Source: an uncultured Clostridiaceae bacterium (lineage in GTDB: Bacteria > Bacillota > Clostridia > Lachnospirales > Lachnospiraceae). From it: a DNA stretch of 38,832 nucleotides. This document shows positions 20,535 through 33,992 of this stretch, piece after piece. The DNA is taken from positions 1-38,832 of the forward strand of contig CAMHJT010000005.1 in NCBI GenBank assembly GCA_946185495.1, given 5' to 3'. The notes beneath the pieces are model-generated. The model searched no databases, was not told the DNA's origin, and saw only the letters and a list, made by a program, of their open reading frames with translations. The position numbers and the translations under genes were made by a program. The stretch's first letter is position 1, and each line of letters starts with the position of its first letter.

Positions 20535-21218
20535 TTATACCTCATCCTTCCTGTATCTGGCAAGAAATTCTTCATACCCCTTTCTGCGGAGCGTGCAGCT
20601 CGGACAATGGCCGCAGCCATCCCCCCGCACGCCATTGTAGCAGGTAAGCGTTTTCTCCTTCACAAGCTCCAGCCCTCCCAGTTCCTGCGCGAGCCTCCAG
20701 GTATCCGCCTTATCGATCCACATCAGCGGTGTCTCTATGCAGAAGGTGGTGTCCATCGCGAGATTCAGCGTTGCGTTCAGGGACTTGATAAACACATCCC
20801 TGCAGTCCGGATATCCGGAAAAGTCGCTCTGTGAAACGCCTGTCACCAGATCCGTGATACTCCTCTGCTTGGCAAATACAGCCGCAAAGGTCAGAAACAG
20901 CATATTCCTTCCGTCAACGACACTGTTGGGAGGTCCCTCCTCCGGCGCCTCCTGATCCACGCTGATCCCTTCCCTTGTCAGGGAATTGGGCGCAAGCTGA
21001 TTCAGCAGCGACATATCAAGCACATGCCATTCCACATCCAGCTGCTGCGCGATCTCCTTCGCGCACGCAAGCTCCTCCCTGTGCCTTTGCCCATAGTCAA
21101 AGGACACAGCTACCACCTCACGATACCGTTTCAAAGCCCAAAGCAGGCAAGTGGTGCTGTCCTGTCCGCCGGAAAACACAACCAGCGCTGTCTCTCTGTT
21201 TCTTGTATTCATATTCAT
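20535..21218 (-). CDS. queC: 7-cyano-7-deazaguanine synthase
   Basis: [32 protein letters not shown], and C-terminal zinc motif [19 protein letters not shown]. Start trimmed from track 21296 to [13 protein letters not shown], behind GGAAGGGAG. Confidence 0.94.
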
Positions 21219-21246
21219 TGTATATTCAAAGCTCCCTTCCACAATT

Positions 21247-21825
21247 TTACCGCAGCATGAGCAGCAGCCTGTTCTGCAGAGCCGCATCCGTTTCAAAACG
21301 CCCCCGGAAGGTCGTGGTAACGGTTTTGGCGGAGGGCTTTTTGATCCCCCTTGCCGTCATGCAGCTATGGCTGCCCTCAATATAAACCGCCACATCCAAA
21401 GATCCGGTGGCCTTTGTCATAATCTCCGCAATATCAGTGCCGATCCGTTCCTGAAGCTGCAGCCGCTTGGCCACCATGTCGGCAATCCTCGCAATCTTGC
21501 TCAAACCGATGACCCTGCCCCTTGGAATATAGGCAACTGTCACCTTCATGTCATACATCAGCGCCAGATGGTGCTCGCAGTAGCTGAAAACCTCTATATC
21601 CTTTACCACCACCATATCCTGTTCGCCATCACCCGTCACCTCAAAGCTCTTGGAAAACATCCTCGCAATCTCATCATTGGTGTAATTCATGCCCTCGAAG
21701 ACCTCAGCGTACATTCTCGCCACCCGGTCCGGCGTATCCTTTAACCCCTCCCTCTCCGGGTCATCTCCAAGCGCAATGAGAATACCCCTGACATGCTCCC
21801 TGATTGCCTCCTGATCAATTGCCAT
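21247..21825 (-). CDS. folE: GTP cyclohydrolase I
   Basis: [66 protein letters not shown]. Confidence 0.95.
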
Positions 21826-21842
21826 CTCTATCTCCTTCCATT

Positions 21843-22646
21843 TCAGACTCCCCGCTGATCCGGATCCCAGATCAGCTTATGAAGCTGCAGCTGCATATTC
21901 ACATGATTCATTGTCTGTTCCTTCATAAAATCCACAAGCTCTGACGGGGCAATCCTGCCAAAGCAGGGGCTTAAATATATCCCGCAGCCCCTTTCCGCCA
22001 GATTGAACCGCTCAATGATCTCCCTGCACTTTAAAAGCTCCTCGCGGCTGCTCACCACAAATTTCACGGTATCGCAGCTTCTTAGGTACACGTAATTGGA
22101 CAAGAGCATCTTCTGCTCCATCCCGCTGCCAGCCAGCTTGTAATCCATCGTAAAGCTCACATTGTCCTGCTGCTCCAACGGCTGCCCCACGCCCGCGCTC
22201 CGGTCCTGCGGCTGTTCTGTACCCGCGTTCCAGTCCCGCTGCTGCCCTGTGCCCGCGTTTCTCCTGTTCCCGCTCTTAAAAATCGAACTGAACTGCTCCG
22301 TATCCGGAAGAAACGGAGAGATATCCACCGCGCCGTTTGTCTCAATCTCCACCTCAAAGAAGGAATCCCCCCTAAGCAGGCCCAGCAGCTCGCCGATCCC
22401 TTCCTGCAGCAGCGGTTCCCCGCCGGTCAATGTCACATTGCAGATTCCCGCGTCCTTCAGCAGCTGATAGATCTGTCCCGCGCGCATCCGTTCATACGGC
22501 ACATCCGCCTCATTGGCCCAGCGGGTATCACAATAGCTGCAGGAGAGGTTGCAGCCCGCAAACCGCACAAAATGCGCAAGCTGTCCCGCTTTTCTCCCCT
22601 CCCCGTTAATGCTGACAAAATGTTCCACAACCTGCAGCTTCGCCAT
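21843..22646 (-). CDS. queE: 7-carboxy-7-deazaguanine synthase (radical SAM)
   Basis: [35 protein letters not shown] (Cx3Cx2C), [11 protein letters not shown]; start trimmed from track 22730 to [10 protein letters not shown], behind GGAGGAGG. Confidence 0.93.
22181..22270. repeat. Three-copy 30-bp in-frame minisatellite inside queE
   Basis: gctgccccacgcccgcgctccggtcctgcg / gctgttctgtacccgcgttccagtcccgct / gctgccctgtgcccgcgtttctcctgttcc, contiguous 30-bp units (third degenerate). Confidence 0.8.
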
Positions 22647-22676
22647 CTCTTTCCTCCTCCGTAAAATCTGTTTCAG

Positions 22677-22722
22677 GCCACCTTTTTCCGGCTTCCAGAT
22701 GCTAGTCTGTCCGGCTTCTCTG
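22677..22722 (-). repeat. Dispersed intergenic repeat, copy A
   Basis: gccacctttttccggcttccagatgctagtctgtccggcttctctgc; shares ggcttccagatgc-agtctg with copy B. Confidence 0.65.
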
Positions 22723-22736
22723 CAAAGCATTTCAGA

Positions 22737-22783
22737 GCCGCCTTTTGGGGCTTCCAGATGCCAGTCTGCCCGTTTTCCTGTAT
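22737..22783 (-). repeat. Dispersed intergenic repeat, copy B
   Basis: gccgccttttggggcttccagatgccagtctgcccgttttcctg; tandem with copy A, abutting the queD 3' end. Confidence 0.65.
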
Positions 22784-23203
22784 CTATGCGGAATATGCAG
22801 CGCAGTTATCCGGCGTCTCGTATACCTTCACCAAAACCACCTGATATCCCCGTTCTTCAAGCTCTCCGTAAAAATACTCCGCCAGATTCTCCGCAGTCGG
22901 TCGAAAGCCCAGCTCAACCAGACGGAAGCCCTCCTCCTCAAGAGCCGCCCTCGTCTTCTCCTTCAGGCTTCCCGCTTCCAGGATCAGGCTGTGATCCATC
23001 TCCTCCGCAAGCTTTTTGAGATCCTTCTTAAATGTCTTGAAATCCACGATCATCCCGCGCTCTGATCCGTCCCCGCAAAGCTCCTCTGAGGCTATCACTG
23101 CCTCCAGCTTAAAACGGTGTCCATGGATATTGCTGCATTTTCCGTCATACCCCTTTAAAAAATGCGCGCTGTCAAAGCAAGCGCTGCTCTGTAATGTATA
23201 CAT
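22784..23203 (-). CDS. queD: 6-carboxytetrahydropterin synthase
   Basis: FDSAHFLKGYDGKCSNIHGHRFKLEAVI, MIVDFKTFKKDLKKLAEEMDHSLIL; PTAENLAEYFY. Start trimmed to MYTLQSS, behind GAGGAGGAATTGT. Confidence 0.93.
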   Translation of the reverse strand: MYTLQSSACFDSAHFLKGYDGKCSNIHGHRFKLEAVIASEELCGDGSERGMIVDFKTFKKDLKKLAEEMDHSLILEAGSLKEKTRAALEEEGFRLVELGFRPTAENLAEYFYGELEERGYQVVLVKVYETPDNCAAYSA

Positions 23204-23462
23204 ACAATTCCTCCTCAAAATGCCAGTGTTATCAGGTTAAAGGTGATCTCTTCCGGCACGCATTACAAAAAACACCCCTGGCCGGCATTCGCGACAAAAG
23301 CAACTGAAAGTTCTCTTTGCGGTGTGCCGCGCGAATAACAGCGCGTCGGAAACCATCAGCATATCACCATATGCCTTTTCCGGACCTTCACAAAGAATCC
23401 TGTAAAACGGGATCATCATCAATACCTGTCACTGCCCAAACAGAGGTGTTTTCATATTGGTC

Positions 23463-23611: not shown

Positions 23612-25096
23612 TTACAGCAGGATTCCCCTTACAATTTTTTCCATATCCGCCTTGTCGCACACGGTATCATGCAGCACAGGAGCGGTACGGATCTCTTCCA
23701 CAGCCTGCGGAACCGGCACGCCGGAAAGGCTGTTTAACGCGTCCACCAGTTCAAAGTCAGAGGCGTCTCCGCAGTCTCCGCGCAGCGCTTCCATCACACT
23801 TCTGGTGAATTTATACGGGCTGGCTGTCGACGCGATCACTGTCGGTGTCCCGTCACCGGTTTCCTTCACGTACTTGTCATACACAGAGGACGCCACAGCG
23901 GTATGGGTATCCATGACATAGGCATCCGACTCATATACCCGCTTGATAGCTGCGGCTGTCTCTGCCTCATCCGCGTAACCACCGTAAAACTCTGACAGCT
24001 TTTGCCGCATATTGTCATCGATCTCATATCTTCCTTCCGCAGTAAGGGACTTCATCAAAGCGGCGTTCCGTTCCGCGTCATCCCCCGCGATCCGGTAGAT
24101 CAGGCGCTCCAGATTGCTGGAGATCAGGATATCCATGGACGGGGAGCTTGTCAGGATGAACGGGCGGTTCCTGTCATATACGCCTGTGGAAAAGAAATCA
24201 TAGAGAACCTTGTTCTCATTGGAGGCGCAGATAAACTTCCTGATCGGAAGCCCCATTTCCTTCGCGTAATACGCCGCAAGAATATTGCCGAAATTACCGG
24301 TCGGCACCACGACATTGATGGGATCTCCTGCCTTGACCTCTCCCTCTGCCACCAGCCTCGCGTAAGCATATACATAATAGACCATCTGAGGCACAAGGCG
24401 GCCGATATTGATGGAATTGGCAGATGAAAACTGGAAGCCCTTCTCATTCAGCTCCTTCGCAAGCTGCTTGTCGTTGAACATATTTTTCACTCCGGTCTGG
24501 GCGTCATCAAAATTGCCGATGATGCCTACCACAGAGGTATTGGCTCCTTTCTGCGTGACCATCTGCTTCTCCTGGATCGGGCTGACGCCGTTCTTGGGAT
24601 AAAAGACGATAATCCGGGTTCCCGGCACATCCGCAAAACCTGCAAGCGCAGCCTTGCCCGTATCGCCTGAGGTAGCTGTCAGGATCACGATCTCATTCTC
24701 CACATGGTTCTTCCTCGCGGAGGTCACCAGAAGATACGGGAGAATGGAAAGCGCCATATCCTTAAACGCGATGGTGGAGCCATGAAAGAGCTCCAGATAC
24801 CATGCGCCGGCCTTCTTCACCAGCGGGGCAATCTTTTCCGTGTCAAATTTTTTATCATAGGCACTGTTGATGCAGTGCTTCAGTTCTTCCTCTGTGAAAT
24901 CCGTCAGCATGCGGCTCATCACCTCATACGCAACCTCCTGATAGGACATCTGTGCCAGCGTGCCGAAATCCACATCCAGGGCAGGTATCGAATCAGGAAC
25001 AAATAATCCCCCGTTATCCGCCAGTCCCTTCAGGATCGCCTGGGACGCGGTTGCCGTTTCCTGCCTGTTTCTTGTGCTTGTGTACGTTACTGCCAT
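23612..25096 (-). CDS. thrC: Threonine synthase
   Basis: YTSTRNRQETATASQAILKGLADNGGLFVPDSIP, ELFHGSTIAFKDMALSIL (PLP lysine), TATSGDTGKAALAGF, VVPTGNFGNILAAYYAKEMG. Confidence 0.95.
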   Translation of the reverse strand: MAVTYTSTRNRQETATASQAILKGLADNGGLFVPDSIPALDVDFGTLAQMSYQEVAYEVMSRMLTDFTEEELKHCINSAYDKKFDTEKIAPLVKKAGAWYLELFHGSTIAFKDMALSILPYLLVTSARKNHVENEIVILTATSGDTGKAALAGFADVPGTRIIVFYPKNGVSPIQEKQMVTQKGANTSVVGIIGNFDDAQTGVKNMFNDKQLAKELNEKGFQFSSANSINIGRLVPQMVYYVYAYARLVAEGEVKAGDPINVVVPTGNFGNILAAYYAKEMGLPIRKFICASNENKVLYDFFSTGVYDRNRPFILTSSPSMDILISSNLERLIYRIAGDDAERNAALMKSLTAEGRYEIDDNMRQKLSEFYGGYADEAETAAAIKRVYESDAYVMDTHTAVASSVYDKYVKETGDGTPTVIASTASPYKFTRSVMEALRGDCGDASDFELVDALNSLSGVPVPQAVEEIRTAPVLHDTVCDKADMEKIVRGILL

Positions 25097-25180: not shown

Positions 25181-26086
25181 TTACGGCGCCAGAAAGACTT
25201 CCTTCGTCTGCTTTCCCCATCTCAGGGCTTCCTTATGCGTCATGAAAAACATGTCGATCCGTTTTCCCTTGATTGCGCCGCCGCGGTCCTCAGCGACATA
25301 CACCTGGCCATCAATGATGACTCTGGTTCCAAACGGGATCACGTCCGTATCCACCGCAATGGTACGGTTGGAGGTCGGTACTGTTCCGCTTGCGGTCCGG
25401 TTGCCTCCTGAATATACGCCGCAGCAGATCCTGCAGGTGCAGTACGCGGTAACCACAAACTTGCCAAGGCTTTTTCCATTCTTGGAGGCGAAAACCGGCT
25501 CCCCGATCCTGCCGCCGTTGGAAGCAGTATCCCCGCTGCCCATATCAAGCGTAACCCTCGCGTACCTCGACTGTCTCTGCCGCATCAACGCCGCCCTCTC
25601 CCTGGCCTGCTTCGCGATCTCTGCCGCCAGCGCCGCGTCCTTGCGCTTCTTCTCCTCAGCCTCCCGCTCAGCCTTCACCCTGTCATACGCGATCTTGTCC
25701 GAGGTACGGCTGAACATCGCCGTCAGATTATTTATGGAACGGATCTCCTCCAATTCCCTGGATTCCGCCTCCCGATCCAGCAGATCCATCCTCGCGATCA
25801 TCTGATCCTCCAGAAAGCCATATTTCATGGCATAATAGCTGATCTTCTGGTTCTCGTTCACGACACTGTACATCCTGTTCAGGCTCCCTGCCGCCGCCGG
25901 GACGCTGCTCAGCCTGCCGGGAAGCTCTCCCGCCTTGGCGACCACCTGATAACCTACGCCGGCAACCAGCACCGCAACCGCGGCAAGAAGGATACCGCCC
26001 AGCACATTTTTCACCGGAACCTTTTTCCTGTGCAGTCCGGATTCCCGTCCCTCCGGCACATCGTTTCCTGTTTTTTCCTGCTCCAT
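25181..26086 (-). CDS. Membrane-anchored 3D (Asp-Asp-Asp) domain protein, probable cell-wall hydrolase
   Basis: N-terminal TM segment (VLGGILLAAVAVLVAGVGYQVV), charged coiled-coil middle, C-terminal KFVVTAYCTCRICCGVYSGGNRTASGT...IAVDTDVIPFGTRVIIDGQVYVAEDRGGAIKGKRIDMFF. Confidence 0.88.
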   Translation of the reverse strand: MEQEKTGNDVPEGRESGLHRKKVPVKNVLGGILLAAVAVLVAGVGYQVVAKAGELPGRLSSVPAAAGSLNRMYSVVNENQKISYYAMKYGFLEDQMIARMDLLDREAESRELEEIRSINNLTAMFSRTSDKIAYDRVKAEREAEEKKRKDAALAAEIAKQARERAALMRQRQSRYARVTLDMGSGDTASNGGRIGEPVFASKNGKSLGKFVVTAYCTCRICCGVYSGGNRTASGTVPTSNRTIAVDTDVIPFGTRVIIDGQVYVAEDRGGAIKGKRIDMFFMTHKEALRWGKQTKEVFLAP

Positions 26087-26593
26087 TCGTTATCCTCCTT
26101 TCCCCGCCTTACACAGCCATCTTTTTCCCCGCACCTGATCTTTTGTTTGGCCTGCAGCTGACGCAAATCTGCCAAAAATAATTTCAAAAATGATTGCGCC
26201 GACACACTAGATTATAATTTCAATTACAGGAAAGGTCAAGTCTTTTATCAGCCGTATCACAAAACAAACTGTTTTCCGATGTGACGCATTTTGTATTGTT
26301 GCAAGTATCATCCTGTGATAAAATATCAGACAAAGATAACCCCATCGTGACGCGATCTATACGGATACCGTTCCCCGGACAGGATATCCTGTATCGACAC
26401 CTGACCGGACGATGTCAGACAAAAAACGTATTTGTTCAGCAGGTGCTGACCCAGATACGCAGCGGGTGAAGCTTAAGCATCCTGATTCACACGCTTCAAG
26501 GCAAAATAGAATGATCCGGCACGGTCTGCACAGTGAATGCGCAGGCCTACCGGGTAATTAAAAAAGATCAGAGTTTCGGGAGGAACACGCATT

Positions 26594-27424
26594 ATGATCA
26601 CAAAAAATACAACCCATCCGGACGCAAACCGGATTGCAGGCGTATCCAAAGCCAGAAAAAAAGACGGAACCCTCTATTACCGTTCCTCCATCACCCTGCG
26701 CTCCAGGCATGTAAGCCTCGGAAGCTTCCCCACTCCGGAACGCGCCGGACAAGCTTACGCGGAAGCATGCGCCATCGTGCGCGAAGGGCGGTATGAACTG
26801 GAGGATTATGATGCCCATTCCTTCTGCCTGGATTTTTCCAAATTCGTCATTCTCCTCAATTACAGAAATACCGGCATCTATTTTAAAAATCCCATTTACC
26901 TGCAGGCCGGACATTTCCTGTATTATCTGTCTCCGGACCAGTACCTGATCTTCGACAGGGAGGATCTGTTCTTCTATGCCACCCACAAACTCCAGGTCCG
27001 CGGAGGGTATTATTTCATCTGTGACTACGGCAGCCAGTACAACATCCTCTCCCGCTATGGCATTAAAAACCACGCGCGCAAGGGCATCGACTATATGTTT
27101 GTCAATCAGAACGAATGGGATTTCCGTTACGAGAATATCCGTGTCATCAACGAATACAACGGAGTCAGCGAGAAACAGGATCCGAACCATACCTATTATG
27201 AATGCGTCATCCATGTCAACGGCAACCTGATTGTGGGGCGCTATCCGGACAAGACACAGGCGGCTATCGCTTACAACAAGGCGGCAGACATCTTAAACGC
27301 CAGGGGATTTGCCAGACAGTATGTGAGAAACTATCTGACGCACCTGTCCTCGGAAGAATATCACAGGATCTATGACCGGCTCCGGATCTCAAAGAGGATC
27401 ACAGACTATTCCCCGCAGCCATAA
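26594..27424 (+). CDS. Standalone protein with two AP2-like domains flanking an HNH-like relic
   Basis: N-term GVSKARKKDGTLYYRSSITLRSRHVSLGSFPTPERAGQAYAEA and C-term GVSEKQDPNHTYYECVIHVNGNLIVGRYPDKTQAAIAYNKAADILNARG both resemble AP2 domains; middle FVNQNEWDFRYENIRVIN resembles the HNH region. RBS gggaggaac upstream. Confidence 0.72.
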   Translation: MITKNTTHPDANRIAGVSKARKKDGTLYYRSSITLRSRHVSLGSFPTPERAGQAYAEACAIVREGRYELEDYDAHSFCLDFSKFVILLNYRNTGIYFKNPIYLQAGHFLYYLSPDQYLIFDREDLFFYATHKLQVRGGYYFICDYGSQYNILSRYGIKNHARKGIDYMFVNQNEWDFRYENIRVINEYNGVSEKQDPNHTYYECVIHVNGNLIVGRYPDKTQAAIAYNKAADILNARGFARQYVRNYLTHLSSEEYHRIYDRLRISKRITDYSPQP

Positions 27425-27539: not shown

Positions 27540-27725
27540 ATGAGCCAGTTATCTGAAAAAGAGTTATCCTCACTCAACGAACTGCTGTCTGAGGAAGAGC
27601 TTCTGGTCAAAAAATTCCAAATGCTTTCTGAGCATGCCACCGATTCCGCGGTGCGCGATGAGATGGAGGAGATCTCCAGAAGACATCAGTCACATTTCAA
27701 CCAGCTTTACAGCCATTTAAGTTAA
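27540..27725 (+). CDS. Small helical protein, possible spore-coat/CotF-like partner
   Basis: MSQLSEKELSSLNELLSEEELLVKKFQMLSEHATDSAVRDEMEEISRRHQSHFNQLYSHLS; RBS aaaaggagg; immediately upstream of a CotF-like gene. Confidence 0.72.
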   Translation: MSQLSEKELSSLNELLSEEELLVKKFQMLSEHATDSAVRDEMEEISRRHQSHFNQLYSHLS

Positions 27726-27735
27726 GGAGACCGTC

Positions 27736-28002
27736 ATGAATCAATTTCAGGAAAAAGAAATTTTAGGGGATGCGCTGGCAACCCAGAAAAACGCTACCAG
27801 CCTGTTTAACACCTGCTCTAACGAGTGTGTCCATGAGGGACTGCGTTCTACCATGCTGGATATCCTCGCGGATGAGCACGCCATGCAGCAGGATGTATTC
27901 TGCGCTATGCATGAGCGGGGATACTATCCCACGCCCGATGCGCAGCAGAACAAGATCGACGAAGCCAGACAGAAGTTCTCCGCTTCCTTCAAGAGCAACT
28001 AA
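27736..28002 (+). CDS. CotF-like spore coat domain protein
   Basis: QFQEKEILGDALATQKNATSLFNTCSNECVHEGLRSTMLDILADEHAMQQDVFCAMHERGYYPTPDAQQNKIDEARQ resembles Coat F domain; RBS aaggaga. Confidence 0.8.
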   Translation: MNQFQEKEILGDALATQKNATSLFNTCSNECVHEGLRSTMLDILADEHAMQQDVFCAMHERGYYPTPDAQQNKIDEARQKFSASFKSN

Positions 28003-28418: not shown

Positions 28419-30347
28419 ATGACTTACAATGAGTTCTTACAACTGAAGGTCAACGACATCGTCCACCGCCGCATCGATGAGAATGAGATCGTGTACGCTT
28501 TCAAGATCACCGTTGTGGACGCGCATGGAACACGGGGACAGTTTTATGATCCGGTAATGAAGGACTGGTCTGTGGCACCGCCCGATTACTTCGGCTCCAG
28601 AGACTACATAACCCTTCACGCGCCAGATGTCATCAAAAAACTGGACATCCCGAATAAGATGACCGACGCCTTTATCGAAGAGAAATGGAGGGAACTTGCA
28701 GAAGCAGATATCTGTGATCTGCAAAAGAACAATTCACCTCTCACAGCAACGTGGTTTTTATTTCCGGAGGGAACCTTCAGTTTCCTTGTAACAGACTGGT
28801 TCAATGAACATCATTCCAAAGGCCTGCAGTATTTACGAGACCTGATTTCAAAACCAGAGGAGAAGGAGGAAGCTTTAATCGGCGATGTGGAGGATCGCGC
28901 GAATCCTCTTGCTCTTGACGTAGAGGATGAGGATGAGGGATTCAGCATTGACACAGGGGAGGACATGGAGGAAATACCGATCATTCCCAATATACCAAAC
29001 CCGGCTGTCCCGAAAGAGTCATCACCTGTACCGGCAAAAAAAGAGAATGCTTCAGAATCTGTACCTGCTGAAGAACCGAAGATTGAAAAAAACGGAGAAT
29101 CTTTCGAAGCGGAATCATCGGAAGAGGCACAGCCGCAGGACACAAAAACCAATGCTTTCGGGAATACACAGCGCAAGGAACAGCCTCTTCAGGATCCAGT
29201 GCATTTCTCTTCCGAGATAAAAGACAGCGTAGTATCCGATTCTATCTGGAAAGAGCATCCACATACAACTACCGAGTCCATCTGGATTTCCAAAGAAGCG
29301 TCGTCAAAATCATCTAAAGCCCAGGATGACGAGGAACTACCAAGCTTTAAGGCAGATACCGCAAAAGCTGCTTCCGATCTCGATGCCTCAGACACAGCAG
29401 ATGATCAGGAAACTGCTTCGACCAGCTCTAAGGAGATTGCAGAAACCGCTTCTGATGAGGCTGATGCTTCGGACAGCTCTGAAATGATCCCTGAAGCTGC
29501 TTCTGATACTGCTGATGTTTCGGACAGCTCTGAGGTAATTCCTGAAGCTGCTGATACTTTAGACAGCTCTGAAATGATCCCTGAAACTGCTTCTGATACT
29601 GCTGATGTTTCGGACAGCTCCGATGTGATCCCTGAAGACGTATCCGACACAGAAGAAGCAACCGGTTCGGAAGACGAGTCCAAAGATACCCTTCCTTCCC
29701 AGGAAGAGGAGTTAGCTGATTTCAACTCTGAATCCATGTCTCAGGCAGAACCCACAGTCGTACTGCCATCGGTCAAATGCGAACCTGTGCCGACCACAAC
29801 TGCAGAGGACAATCCTCCGATGGAGGAAGCTTCTGCCAAGGATACCCCGGTTCTTTCTCAAACTGCTGAGGCTGCCGATGAAGACACAGCAGTTGACGCC
29901 GTACCGGAGGAACCCGTTCAAACAAAGAATCAAATTCAGGAGGATATGAACATGAATAATCAAGCCGTTGACTTCGATGCCATGAAACAGGCTGCCGCTG
30001 CTATCCGCGACGAATATTTAAGAATTGCCGACCAGATCGCAAACTTAAGCGCTGACCAGTTTGAAGCAATCCAGAAACACCTGTCAAGCCAGGGTATCAG
30101 CAATATCAATGACGGATTGGCCAATTTCGTAAAATCACATCAGAATCTTCTGTCCAGTATCTATGAGGAGGGCTTTGAGATTGCGGATGATAACGGCAAT
30201 CCTGTCACCCTCACTCCCGCAATGCTGGCCCAGATCCGTGAAAAAATGGATATTCAGGCCGGCAAGGACATTGCGCTGAGCACCGACGCGCAGGAGCTTT
30301 CCGATGAGGGCTATCTGGAGCTTTATAGAAGCTCTGTTCTGCAGTAA
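28419..30347 (+). CDS. Acidic repeat protein with conserved-looking N-terminal domain, function unknown
   Basis: 642-aa ORF with RBS-like gagaaagggg; globular N-terminus (MTYNEFLQLKVNDIVHRRIDENEIVYAFKITVVDAHGTRG...), long Asp/Glu/Ser-rich linker, globular C-terminus. Confidence 0.82.
   Translation: MTYNEFLQLKVNDIVHRRIDENEIVYAFKITVVDAHGTRGQFYDPVMKDWSVAPPDYFGSRDYITLHAPDVIKKLDIPNKMTDAFIEEKWRELAEADICDLQKNNSPLTATWFLFPEGTFSFLVTDWFNEHHSKGLQYLRDLISKPEEKEEALIGDVEDRANPLALDVEDEDEGFSIDTGEDMEEIPIIPNIPNPAVPKESSPVPAKKENASESVPAEEPKIEKNGESFEAESSEEAQPQDTKTNAFGNTQRKEQPLQDPVHFSSEIKDSVVSDSIWKEHPHTTTESIWISKEASSKSSKAQDDEELPSFKADTAKAASDLDASDTADDQETASTSSKEIAETASDEADASDSSEMIPEAASDTADVSDSSEVIPEAADTLDSSEMIPETASDTADVSDSSDVIPEDVSDTEEATGSEDESKDTLPSQEEELADFNSESMSQAEPTVVLPSVKCEPVPTTTAEDNPPMEEASAKDTPVLSQTAEAADEDTAVDAVPEEPVQTKNQIQEDMNMNNQAVDFDAMKQAAAAIRDEYLRIADQIANLSADQFEAIQKHLSSQGISNINDGLANFVKSHQNLLSSIYEEGFEIADDNGNPVTLTPAMLAQIREKMDIQAGKDIALSTDAQELSDEGYLELYRSSVLQ
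29455..29650 (+). repeat. In-frame acidic repeats (SDTADVSDSSEVIPEAA-type)
   Basis: Four degenerate copies: DASDSSEMIPEAASD / TADVSDSSEVIPEAAD / TLDSSEMIPETASD / TADVSDSSDVIPEDVSD. Confidence 0.8.
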
Positions 30348-31616: not shown

Positions 31617-33863
31617 TTACTTCGTCTTAAACTTCACACTGGTTTTCCGGTTATAGACATCCTGAACGACCAGCTTGTTCCATTTTCCTTTCTTTTTCAG
31701 GTATGCTTTATATTTTGAAAGCTTAAACTTCATCTGTTTCGCCCCGGCCTTCAGCTTCAGCTTTTTCCCGTTCAGCTTCACAGTTTTGATTCCGTCCTCA
31801 TGCCTGATCTTCACTAGAAACGATTTCTTATACGTCTTTTTATTCTTCAGGCTCAGTGTCGTAACTGCAATTTTTTTCTCACCATCTTCTGTCTTCGCAG
31901 CTTCCTGCGTCTGGCTCGCCGTGGTTTTCTCTGGTGAGGAAGACGCCGTTTCCTTTTCTGTTGTTGCAGGTTTTGACGCCGTTTTTTCTGTTGTCGCAGG
32001 CTTTGATACGTCTGCCGTTTTCTCCGTTGTCGCAGGTTTTGACACATCTGCCGTTTTCTCCGTCGTCCCCTTTTCCGCTCCCGTGCCGGCTGCCTCTGTT
32101 GTCCCTTTCTCCGAACCGGTGCCGCCTGCCTCCGTCGTTCCTTTTTCCGAACCGATACCACCTGCCTCTGTCGTTCCTTTTTCCGAACCTGCGCCGCCTG
32201 CCTCCGTCGTTTCTTTCTCTGAACCGGTGCCGCCTGCCTCCGTCGTTCCTTTTTCCGAACCTGCGCCGCCTGCCTCTGTCGTTCCTTTTTCCGAACCGGT
32301 GCCGCCTGCCTCCGTCGTTTCTTTCTCTGAACCAGTGCCGCCTGCCTCTGTCGTTCCTTTTTCTGAATCTGTTCCGCCATCCTCTGTTACAGGTGTCTCA
32401 GGATCAGCATTTTCATTCTCCTTCGTCAGCGCGTAGCTGCTTCCTTTTTGCAGCAGCAGGCCGCAGTCTGCGCAGTACAAATCTCCTGTATACCCATCCT
32501 GATCCACCGTAGCCGCAGACACATTCCGAAGCTCCGCGCTGCCATGCAGGCACTCCAGTCCGTTCTCAAGCAGAGTGTCAAGCTCCACAGATACGCGTTC
32601 CCTATGCTCCTCATTGGGAACCTTAGCCAGTTCATACTGAAGCTGGCGATTCCGGATCCGCATGCCATAGACCATGCCCAGGCTGACATCCGCATCCGCA
32701 ATCTTCTCCTGCCCGCTTCCGTCAAATCTACAGCACCAGATTCCATCCGGCTGTGAATAAAACAGCCTTCCAAAACAGGAATCGATCTTGCTGAAGGAAC
32801 CGGAATAATAGCGGTTGGTGCTCCCGAATACCCTCCAGACGCCTCCCGGCTCAGCAACCACTTCCCCTGTCTCAGTAATCGCGTGCGTTCCAATCTCATG
32901 GCGGTAGAGCTTCCCCTCATCATCTATCATATACCAGGATCCATCCCTGTTGATCATCTGCGTCTTGATTCCATTCCAGAACGCGTTATCATACGTCGTA
33001 TCTGTACATGCCTCATATTTGTCCCTGTTCCAGTCATGATTATCCCCGTCAAAGGCTGCCTCGCTCTTGAGCAGGTAATCATGCGTCACATTCCCGTAAT
33101 AATCCCAGATTGTGTCATCGTAGGTCACATCCACCATATACCAGCTTCCATCCAGGCATACCTGATTCCAGGCGTGGCTGTCATTCGAAATGATCCGGCA
33201 TGGTATTCCAAGCTTCTGCATAAAATACAGAAATGTATTGGCATATCCGTCACAGACCGCAAGCTTATCAAGCATAGCGCCCTTGATGTTGTGCGCATCC
33301 TCCTTCAGTGTGCCCTCGACCGCCTCCCTGTACGCATACGCCACATCCATACACAGATAATCATGAATCCAGACTATCTTTTCCAGGTCGCTCATATTTT
33401 TGTCCACCATTGCGAGCACCCTGTCAAGCTCCGCCTGTACCGCCGCACGGTCATACTCCTGATACGAGATCTTAAGCTCCATCACCATCCCGGTCATGCC
33501 GTTGCTGCTCCACCGCAGGCCGGTGTCAACATAGTAGAGCTCCGGATGCCGGTTTACCACAGACGCATAGACCTCATACGCTTCCTCGCTTGGAATCATG
33601 TAGTCCGACACATCAATATTCGGATTCATCGCTGTAAGCTGTTCTACCAGATAATCCTCCAGGCTCTGTGCCGGCGATTCGTATAACAGCTTCAAGAACG
33701 GTCTCTGTTCCAAAAGGAAAGTCTCCTCCTTAAGCTCAGAATAACCGCCCTCCTTCACAAAACAGGACGGATCATTTTTAGCTTGCAGCCCCGCCGCATC
33801 CGTCTGAAAGCCCGGTATCATTGCCGCGCCAAGCAGTACCGCCAACAGCCAAATCTTTTTCAT
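31617..33863 (-). CDS. Secreted transglutaminase-like protein with tandem repeat linker and basic C-terminal domain
   Basis: Signal peptide MKKIWLLAVLLGAAMIPGFQTDA; triad motifs AVCDGYANTFLYFMQKLGIPCRII, SHAWNQVCLDGSWYMVDVTYDDT; repeat-rich linker; Lys-rich C-terminus. Start trimmed from track 33899. Confidence 0.87.
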   Translation of the reverse strand: MKKIWLLAVLLGAAMIPGFQTDAAGLQAKNDPSCFVKEGGYSELKEETFLLEQRPFLKLLYESPAQSLEDYLVEQLTAMNPNIDVSDYMIPSEEAYEVYASVVNRHPELYYVDTGLRWSSNGMTGMVMELKISYQEYDRAAVQAELDRVLAMVDKNMSDLEKIVWIHDYLCMDVAYAYREAVEGTLKEDAHNIKGAMLDKLAVCDGYANTFLYFMQKLGIPCRIISNDSHAWNQVCLDGSWYMVDVTYDDTIWDYYGNVTHDYLLKSEAAFDGDNHDWNRDKYEACTDTTYDNAFWNGIKTQMINRDGSWYMIDDEGKLYRHEIGTHAITETGEVVAEPGGVWRVFGSTNRYYSGSFSKIDSCFGRLFYSQPDGIWCCRFDGSGQEKIADADVSLGMVYGMRIRNRQLQYELAKVPNEEHRERVSVELDTLLENGLECLHGSAELRNVSAATVDQDGYTGDLYCADCGLLLQKGSSYALTKENENADPETPVTEDGGTDSEKGTTEAGGTGSEKETTEAGGTGSEKGTTEAGGAGSEKGTTEAGGTGSEKETTEAGGAGSEKGTTEAGGIGSEKGTTEAGGTGSEKGTTEAAGTGAEKGTTEKTADVSKPATTEKTADVSKPATTEKTASKPATTEKETASSSPEKTTASQTQEAAKTEDGEKKIAVTTLSLKNKKTYKKSFLVKIRHEDGIKTVKLNGKKLKLKAGAKQMKFKLSKYKAYLKKKGKWNKLVVQDVYNRKTSVKFKTK
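32064..32389. repeat. 36-bp minisatellite (about 9 copies) encoding GGTGSEKGTTEA
   Basis: gttcctttttccgaaccggtgccgcctgcctccgtc-type units; preceded by about 3 KTADVSKPATTE units (31955-32064). Confidence 0.9.
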
Positions 33864-33992
33864 AAAACCCACTCCTTTACCGCGGAAAAACACAATCATG
33901 CCCGATCACATTTCTAATTGTCGTCTATACCATATATCCATACGATTATGCATATATATTGACATTATACACCAGAACAATCCAAAAAAACA

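Follow-up and report, generated by a model that had tools for sequence, protein, structure and literature searches.

The window (the whole stretch of DNA analysed, 38,832 nucleotides) contains an open reading frame for 276 aa on the plus strand, which is separated by a long intergenic region from genes transcribed in the opposite direction. This part of the window is arranged as follows:

23612..25096, minus strand: thrC, threonine synthase (Pfam), the family's most conserved neighbour, found at 47 of the 63 loci
25181..26086, minus strand: divergent gene for a 3D-domain protein (Pfam 3D, 7.9e-17)
26087..26593, no strand: divergent intergenic region, 507 bp as measured
26211..26239, minus strand: TTGACC-N17-TATAAT, which probably serves the divergent 3D gene as a sigma-A promoter (read by eye; the same arrangement is found in L002)
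26578..26583, plus strand: ribosome-binding site GGGAGG, 10 nt 5' of the ATG (from the sequence)
26594..27424, plus strand: open reading frame of 276 aa with an ATG start, encoding an AP2–HNH-like–AP2 protein (AF2 model)

The first-pass annotation had placed a frame of 276 aa at exactly these coordinates, behind a divergent upstream region of about 500 bp, and both statements proved correct. The GGAGG before the start is also kept in relatives of the gene. As the homologues of the protein show 43-71% identity and their frames are open over the full length, the frame at 26594-27424 is a real gene.

Within the protein, two AP2 modules enclose a middle region in the following order, all on the plus strand:

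26633..26779, plus strand: AP2 module 1 (AP2-1), residues 14-62 (PHROG_99 at residues 13-60; AF2 strands and helix; hhalign E 3e-8)
26828..26887, plus strand: helix and linker from AP2-1 to the centre, residues 79-98, kept within the family and lying beyond the region alignable to phage HNH domains
26888..27154, plus strand: HNH-like centre without catalytic residues, residues 99-187 (hhalign, 71 columns, E 0.0012)
27050..27052, plus strand: codon of Ser153, which takes the place of the His of the MHR motif (S in 93 and N in 23 of 136 homologues)
27098..27100, plus strand: codon of Phe169, aligned with the catalytic His of DH (F in 135 of 136 homologues)
27122..27124, plus strand: codon of Phe177, where DNR has its catalytic Asn (F in 86, Y in 26, L in 20 and M in 4 homologues; never N)
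27155..27307, plus strand: AP2 module 2 (AP2-2), residues 188-238 (AF2 strands and helix; hhalign jointly with the HNH tail, E 9e-11)

The window protein alone gave no significant match in Pfam or NCBIfam, AP2 included. Its first AP2 module was matched by PHROG_99, 'HNH endonuclease', at 1.8e-8. When the domains were counted over the 30 homologues of alignment A1, PHROG_99 was matched by all 30 (best 4e-16) and Pfam AP2 (PF00847) by eight (best 2.6e-7), and HNH_3 was matched weakly by four (best 0.097). A profile search of the PDB retrieved the plant double-AP2 protein WRI1 at 1.5e-5; de novo TIM barrels in the same search matched only a short part of the middle region, which was taken as chance. 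Neither Pfam nor NCBIfam has a curated model covering the AP2–HNH-like–AP2 family as a whole.

In the AF2 model built from alignment A1 (pLDDT 93, pTM 0.76), a three-stranded sheet followed by a helix appeared at both ends of the protein, with strands 17-21, 27-35 and 38-45 and helix 48-62 in AP2-1, and strands 191-196, 199-207 and 211-217 and helix 220-236 in AP2-2. Foldseek against the PDB placed the AP2 domain of Arabidopsis TEM1 (prob 1.00) and the double-AP2 protein WRI1 on top, with E values of at least 5e-3. Against viral structures, 39 matches were obtained at E <= 0.001, many of them annotated as HNH or AP2 endonucleases, and viral HNH/AP2 proteins were the best structural matches of all (E 1e-10). 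The overall TM-scores were low (0.16-0.29, query-normalised), so that these matches speak for domains in common and not for an identical arrangement. The double AP2 claimed in the first-pass annotation is thus borne out by the predicted units at both ends, by the AP2 folds retrieved and by the PF00847 matches within the family. The middle domain modelled alone (pLDDT 91) gave no significant PDB match and no HNH fold.

HNH endonucleases, which belong to the beta-beta-alpha-Me type, use a catalytic His and a metal-binding Asn. In the centre of the window protein, the motif FVNQNEWDFRYENIRVIN lines up with HxNGDxxDNRxxNLR of the phage enzymes, collinear with AP2-2. Compared by hhalign with 11 phage AP2-HNH proteins, AP2-1 aligned at E 3e-8 and the HNH tail plus AP2-2 aligned as a single collinear block at E 7e-8; with 14 enzymes of the type known from Bacillus phages 268TH002 and Stahl, the latter block reached E 9e-11. 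The centre alone aligned with the phage HNH domains end to end over 71 columns at E 0.0012, a marginal value that one of 60 column shuffles exceeded. Because of these values, the HNH homology of the centre appears well supported for its C-terminal end and its position, and moderately for the remainder.

In the aligned register, MHR of the phage enzymes corresponds to LSR in the family, DH to MF and DNR to DFR. Both the catalytic His and the metal-binding Asn are missing in 136/136 homologues, not all of which are distinct sequences, whereas the structural residues N171, D176, R178 and N181 are mostly retained. The HNH-like centre with F in place of the catalytic His, as first described from the window, is shared by 135 of the 136 homologues. 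Since the catalytic residues were looked for and are missing, the family was not filed as an HNH nuclease.

The centre had also been described as eroded, and this part of the description did not stand. For pairs with measurable dS, dN/dS was 0.04-0.13 over the whole gene and 0.025-0.05 over the centre, the value for the window pair being rough because its dS is about 2; the centre lay below AP2-1 in dN/dS and, in most pairs, below AP2-2 too. Conservation per column was also highest in the centre (0.72, against 0.61-0.63 in the AP2 modules). The gene family is under strong purifying selection, which is strongest on the former nuclease centre. As this nuclease-derived part is the most constrained one (dN/dS about 0.03), it has been repurposed and is not eroding; it is a maintained domain and no relic.

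The gene was found in 164 of 397 genomes of Lachnospiraceae, 160 of them with one match and four with two; in two of these four, for which the places are listed, the double match is a single gene split in two pieces. Across the order, it was present in 111 of 392 genomes, from families f1, f2, f4, f21, f22 and f24. Samples of the class (388 genomes) and of the phylum (149) gave matches from the family of the window only, and none outside the order. Named carriers include records of Anaerocolumna, Herbinix, Mobilitalea, Petralouisia, Pseudobutyrivibrio and Roseburia. As the gene is absent from about 59% of the family genomes, its product is no core regulator.

No match to the gene was found in the plasmid search. 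The phage collection gave two, MT836856.1 (L109) and MT837267.1 (L110), both short unannotated faecal scaffolds labelled Bacteriophage sp. These were rejected as phage genes: the scaffolds carry bacterial neighbours (thrC, leuC/leuD and a LysR gene between them) and are therefore host DNA, probably mislabelled. A mobile element of the present day was rejected as well, since the gene is single-copy, syntenic, restricted to the order in the samples searched and free of plasmid matches, and its phage records are bacterial scaffolds.

Distances between the proteins track those between the thrC products (Mantel r 0.80; the highest value among the permutations was 0.36). Synteny, counted over 63 loci with flanks, extends with thrC and a divergent gene for a Hydrolase_2 (SleB/CwlJ-type) cell-wall hydrolase across families f1, f4, f21 and f22; the hydrolase gene was detected by Pfam in 42 of the 63 loci, and in the genus of the window its place is filled by the 3D-domain gene. 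Downstream, many f1 genomes carry leuD/leuC, a LysR gene and ilvC/ilvN, as named from the sequence. The protein tree sets f2 apart from the rest and joins f4, f21, f22 and f24 in a single group (support 0.92). The f2 homologues (L111-L121) combine the same degenerate centre with a third, C-terminal AP2 module, and a transketolase gene adjoins most of them in place of thrC.

The first-pass annotation had suggested domestication of a homing endonuclease. The consistent loss of catalytic residues, the AP2 folds kept, and the syntenic, vertical inheritance on the chromosome agree with that suggestion, and no intact active sites scattered with mobile elements were seen among the 136 homologues. The protein is probably domesticated and vertically inherited, derives from a phage-type AP2-HNH homing endonuclease and carries an extra N-terminal AP2 module; it would bind DNA, most likely in order to regulate transcription. 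The cutting residues were apparently lost long ago from the phage-type enzyme, and the gene has apparently been kept intact since then. The protein would no longer cut DNA; each of its two AP2 modules would recognise a short site on the DNA. The HNH-derived centre would space the modules in a fixed geometry, and it may also have acquired a binding or interaction role. The whole would be a site-specific chromosomal DNA-binding protein and, as WhiA is, most likely a transcriptional regulator. We infer both site-specific DNA binding and transcriptional regulation from the AP2 modules and from the WhiA precedent. The lower conservation of the AP2 modules relative to the centre counts against a regulator, as it would be unusual if DNA reading were the main constraint.

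Few cases are known in which homing endonucleases have been domesticated into host regulators, and WhiA, derived from the LAGLIDADG type, is the main bacterial one. WhiA, a transcription factor that controls its own gene, contains a degenerate LAGLIDADG domain and is not confined to spore formers (PMC3781837). The family described here resembles WhiA (DUF199/COG1481) in having a homing-endonuclease-derived domain minus its catalytic residues within a conserved chromosomal gene. In contrast, WhiA combines LAGLIDADG with HTH and occurs in essentially all Gram-positives, whereas the present family has an HNH-derived centre with two or three AP2 modules and was seen in one order. The LAGLIDADG domain and C-terminal HTH that are the hallmark of WhiA had no Pfam or NCBIfam match in the family, which is best read as an HNH/AP2 counterpart of WhiA in concept and not as a WhiA member.

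The phage AP2-HNH homing endonucleases (PHROG_99, PHROG_953; Bacillus phages Stahl and 268TH002) share with the family the HNH tail followed by a C-terminal AP2 module. They differ in keeping MHR, DH and DNR, in having one AP2 module in those aligned and in being scattered among phages, whereas in the family the active site is lost, a second AP2 module precedes the centre, and the gene is chromosomal and syntenic. The AP2 family is known mainly from plants and apicomplexans. Plant double-AP2 factors (WRI1, AP2 class), the top PDB matches by both fold and profile, are likewise DNA-binding proteins with a pair of AP2 modules, but they are without the HNH-derived centre, and the relation is at the level of the domain only.

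A second group of AP2 proteins was observed in Lachnospiraceae (L136, L138, L139, L141-L145, L147, L150, L151, L153-L157), with up to five PHROG_99 matches in a single genome (G019). These proteins are also bacterial, from the same family and with a C-terminal AP2 module, but Cys-rich, zinc-finger-like repeats of the form LTGQRFGRLTV...WRCRCDCGxE...SCGC replace the HNH-like centre, and no resemblance was seen outside AP2.

A search of the literature found no description of the AP2–HNH-like–AP2 family. We put at even chances that it represents an unnamed class of bacterial transcription regulators which arose from an AP2-HNH homing endonuclease, was fixed early in Lachnospirales, and uses the former nuclease core as a new sensing, dimerisation or spacing domain, more constrained than the domains that read DNA. 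The family supplies the AP2 family with a bacterial protein, and many genomes with a gene worth naming that has no curated Pfam or NCBIfam model spanning the whole protein. As an HNH/AP2 case that extends across a large order of gut bacteria, in two- and three-AP2 forms and with more than 100 sequences, it makes the route of domestication testable by comparison.

It is possible, but rather unlikely, that the domesticated protein binds DNA without being a transcription factor, and that its role is to mark or organise sites on the chromosome (nucleoid, replication, repair) or to block a former homing site against related nucleases. The anatomy and conservation would be the same as for a regulator, and a centre under more constraint than the AP2 modules would fit a structural or partner-binding role. 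In most relatives, the neighbours are transcribed in the opposite direction, so no operon partner hints at the function, which counts against the regulator reading; this absence of a conserved operon or regulon link also suits a chromosomal-site protein. However, no link to repair or replication genes was seen in the neighbourhood over the 63 loci, the PADLOC library of defence systems gave no match for the protein, and the patchy presence (41% of the family genomes) speaks against a core chromosomal role.

That the protein is a regulator of sporulation is very improbable, even though sporulation-type neighbours, as the first-pass annotation stated, are present in the window: a Coat_F gene (4.8e-20) and, on the other side, the 3D gene adjoin it, and the SleB/CwlJ-type Hydrolase_2 gene lies alongside in many relatives. 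The Coat_F spore-coat gene and the gene for a small protein of 61 aa in tandem with it (27540-28002) had no match in the other loci tested, the nearest relatives included; the adjacent coat genes are private to the lineage of the window. SpoIVA was detected in 259/397 of the same family genomes, 97 of which carried both genes and 162 SpoIVA only, whereas 67 of the 164 carriers lacked it and 71 genomes had neither. If anything, the two genes are negatively associated (OR 0.63, p 0.04, uncorrected for relatedness). The sporulation role proposed earlier was therefore not confirmed, and a dedicated one is unlikely. There is scarcely any likelihood that the protein is a still-active nuclease, selfish or defensive, with a rearranged active site. 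Descent from HNH enzymes would suit such a nuclease, and a site could in principle be built from D166, R154, Q148 and N181, which are (nearly) invariant, but His and Asn are replaced in every homologue (with Phe at the His position in all but one), and the single-copy, syntenic gene, free of mobile context and plasmid matches, has diverged together with thrC.

For the preferred reading, that of a domesticated regulator, the upstream region offers a lead. When two relatives of the same genus were used for footprinting, nothing but the divergent promoter and the start region stood out. A near-perfect 25-bp dyad, TGTATTTTTT-N5-AAAAAATACA, occurs at 18 loci that belong to a single clade (L039, L042, L043, L048, L053, L054, L057, L067, L075 and relatives), where it lies at about +1 to +25 of the AP2 gene, just 3' of the TATACT -10 box of a sigma-A-like promoter; it is missing from the promoter of the AP2 gene in the window and outside this clade. 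When five such genomes were scanned with at most one mismatch, the dyad occurred only at the AP2 gene in three, G1084 had one further copy, and the fifth, G1086, had a 26-bp variant outside the pattern. The dyad at the AP2 gene is the sole exact copy genome-wide in G1084 and G1085, and matches with two mismatches were near the control level. Such a dyad would fit autoregulation, as a lead and not as proof.

Elsewhere in the window, an acidic Ser/Glu/Asp-rich repeat protein of 642 aa without a Pfam match is encoded at 28419-30347, and a protein of 760 aa, in which a transglutaminase-like region is combined with a long tract of EKGTTEAGGTGS repeats, at 31617-33899. An apparent queuosine/preQ0 cluster on the minus strand, with queC, folE, queE and queD-like genes as read from the sequence, occupies 20535-23218.
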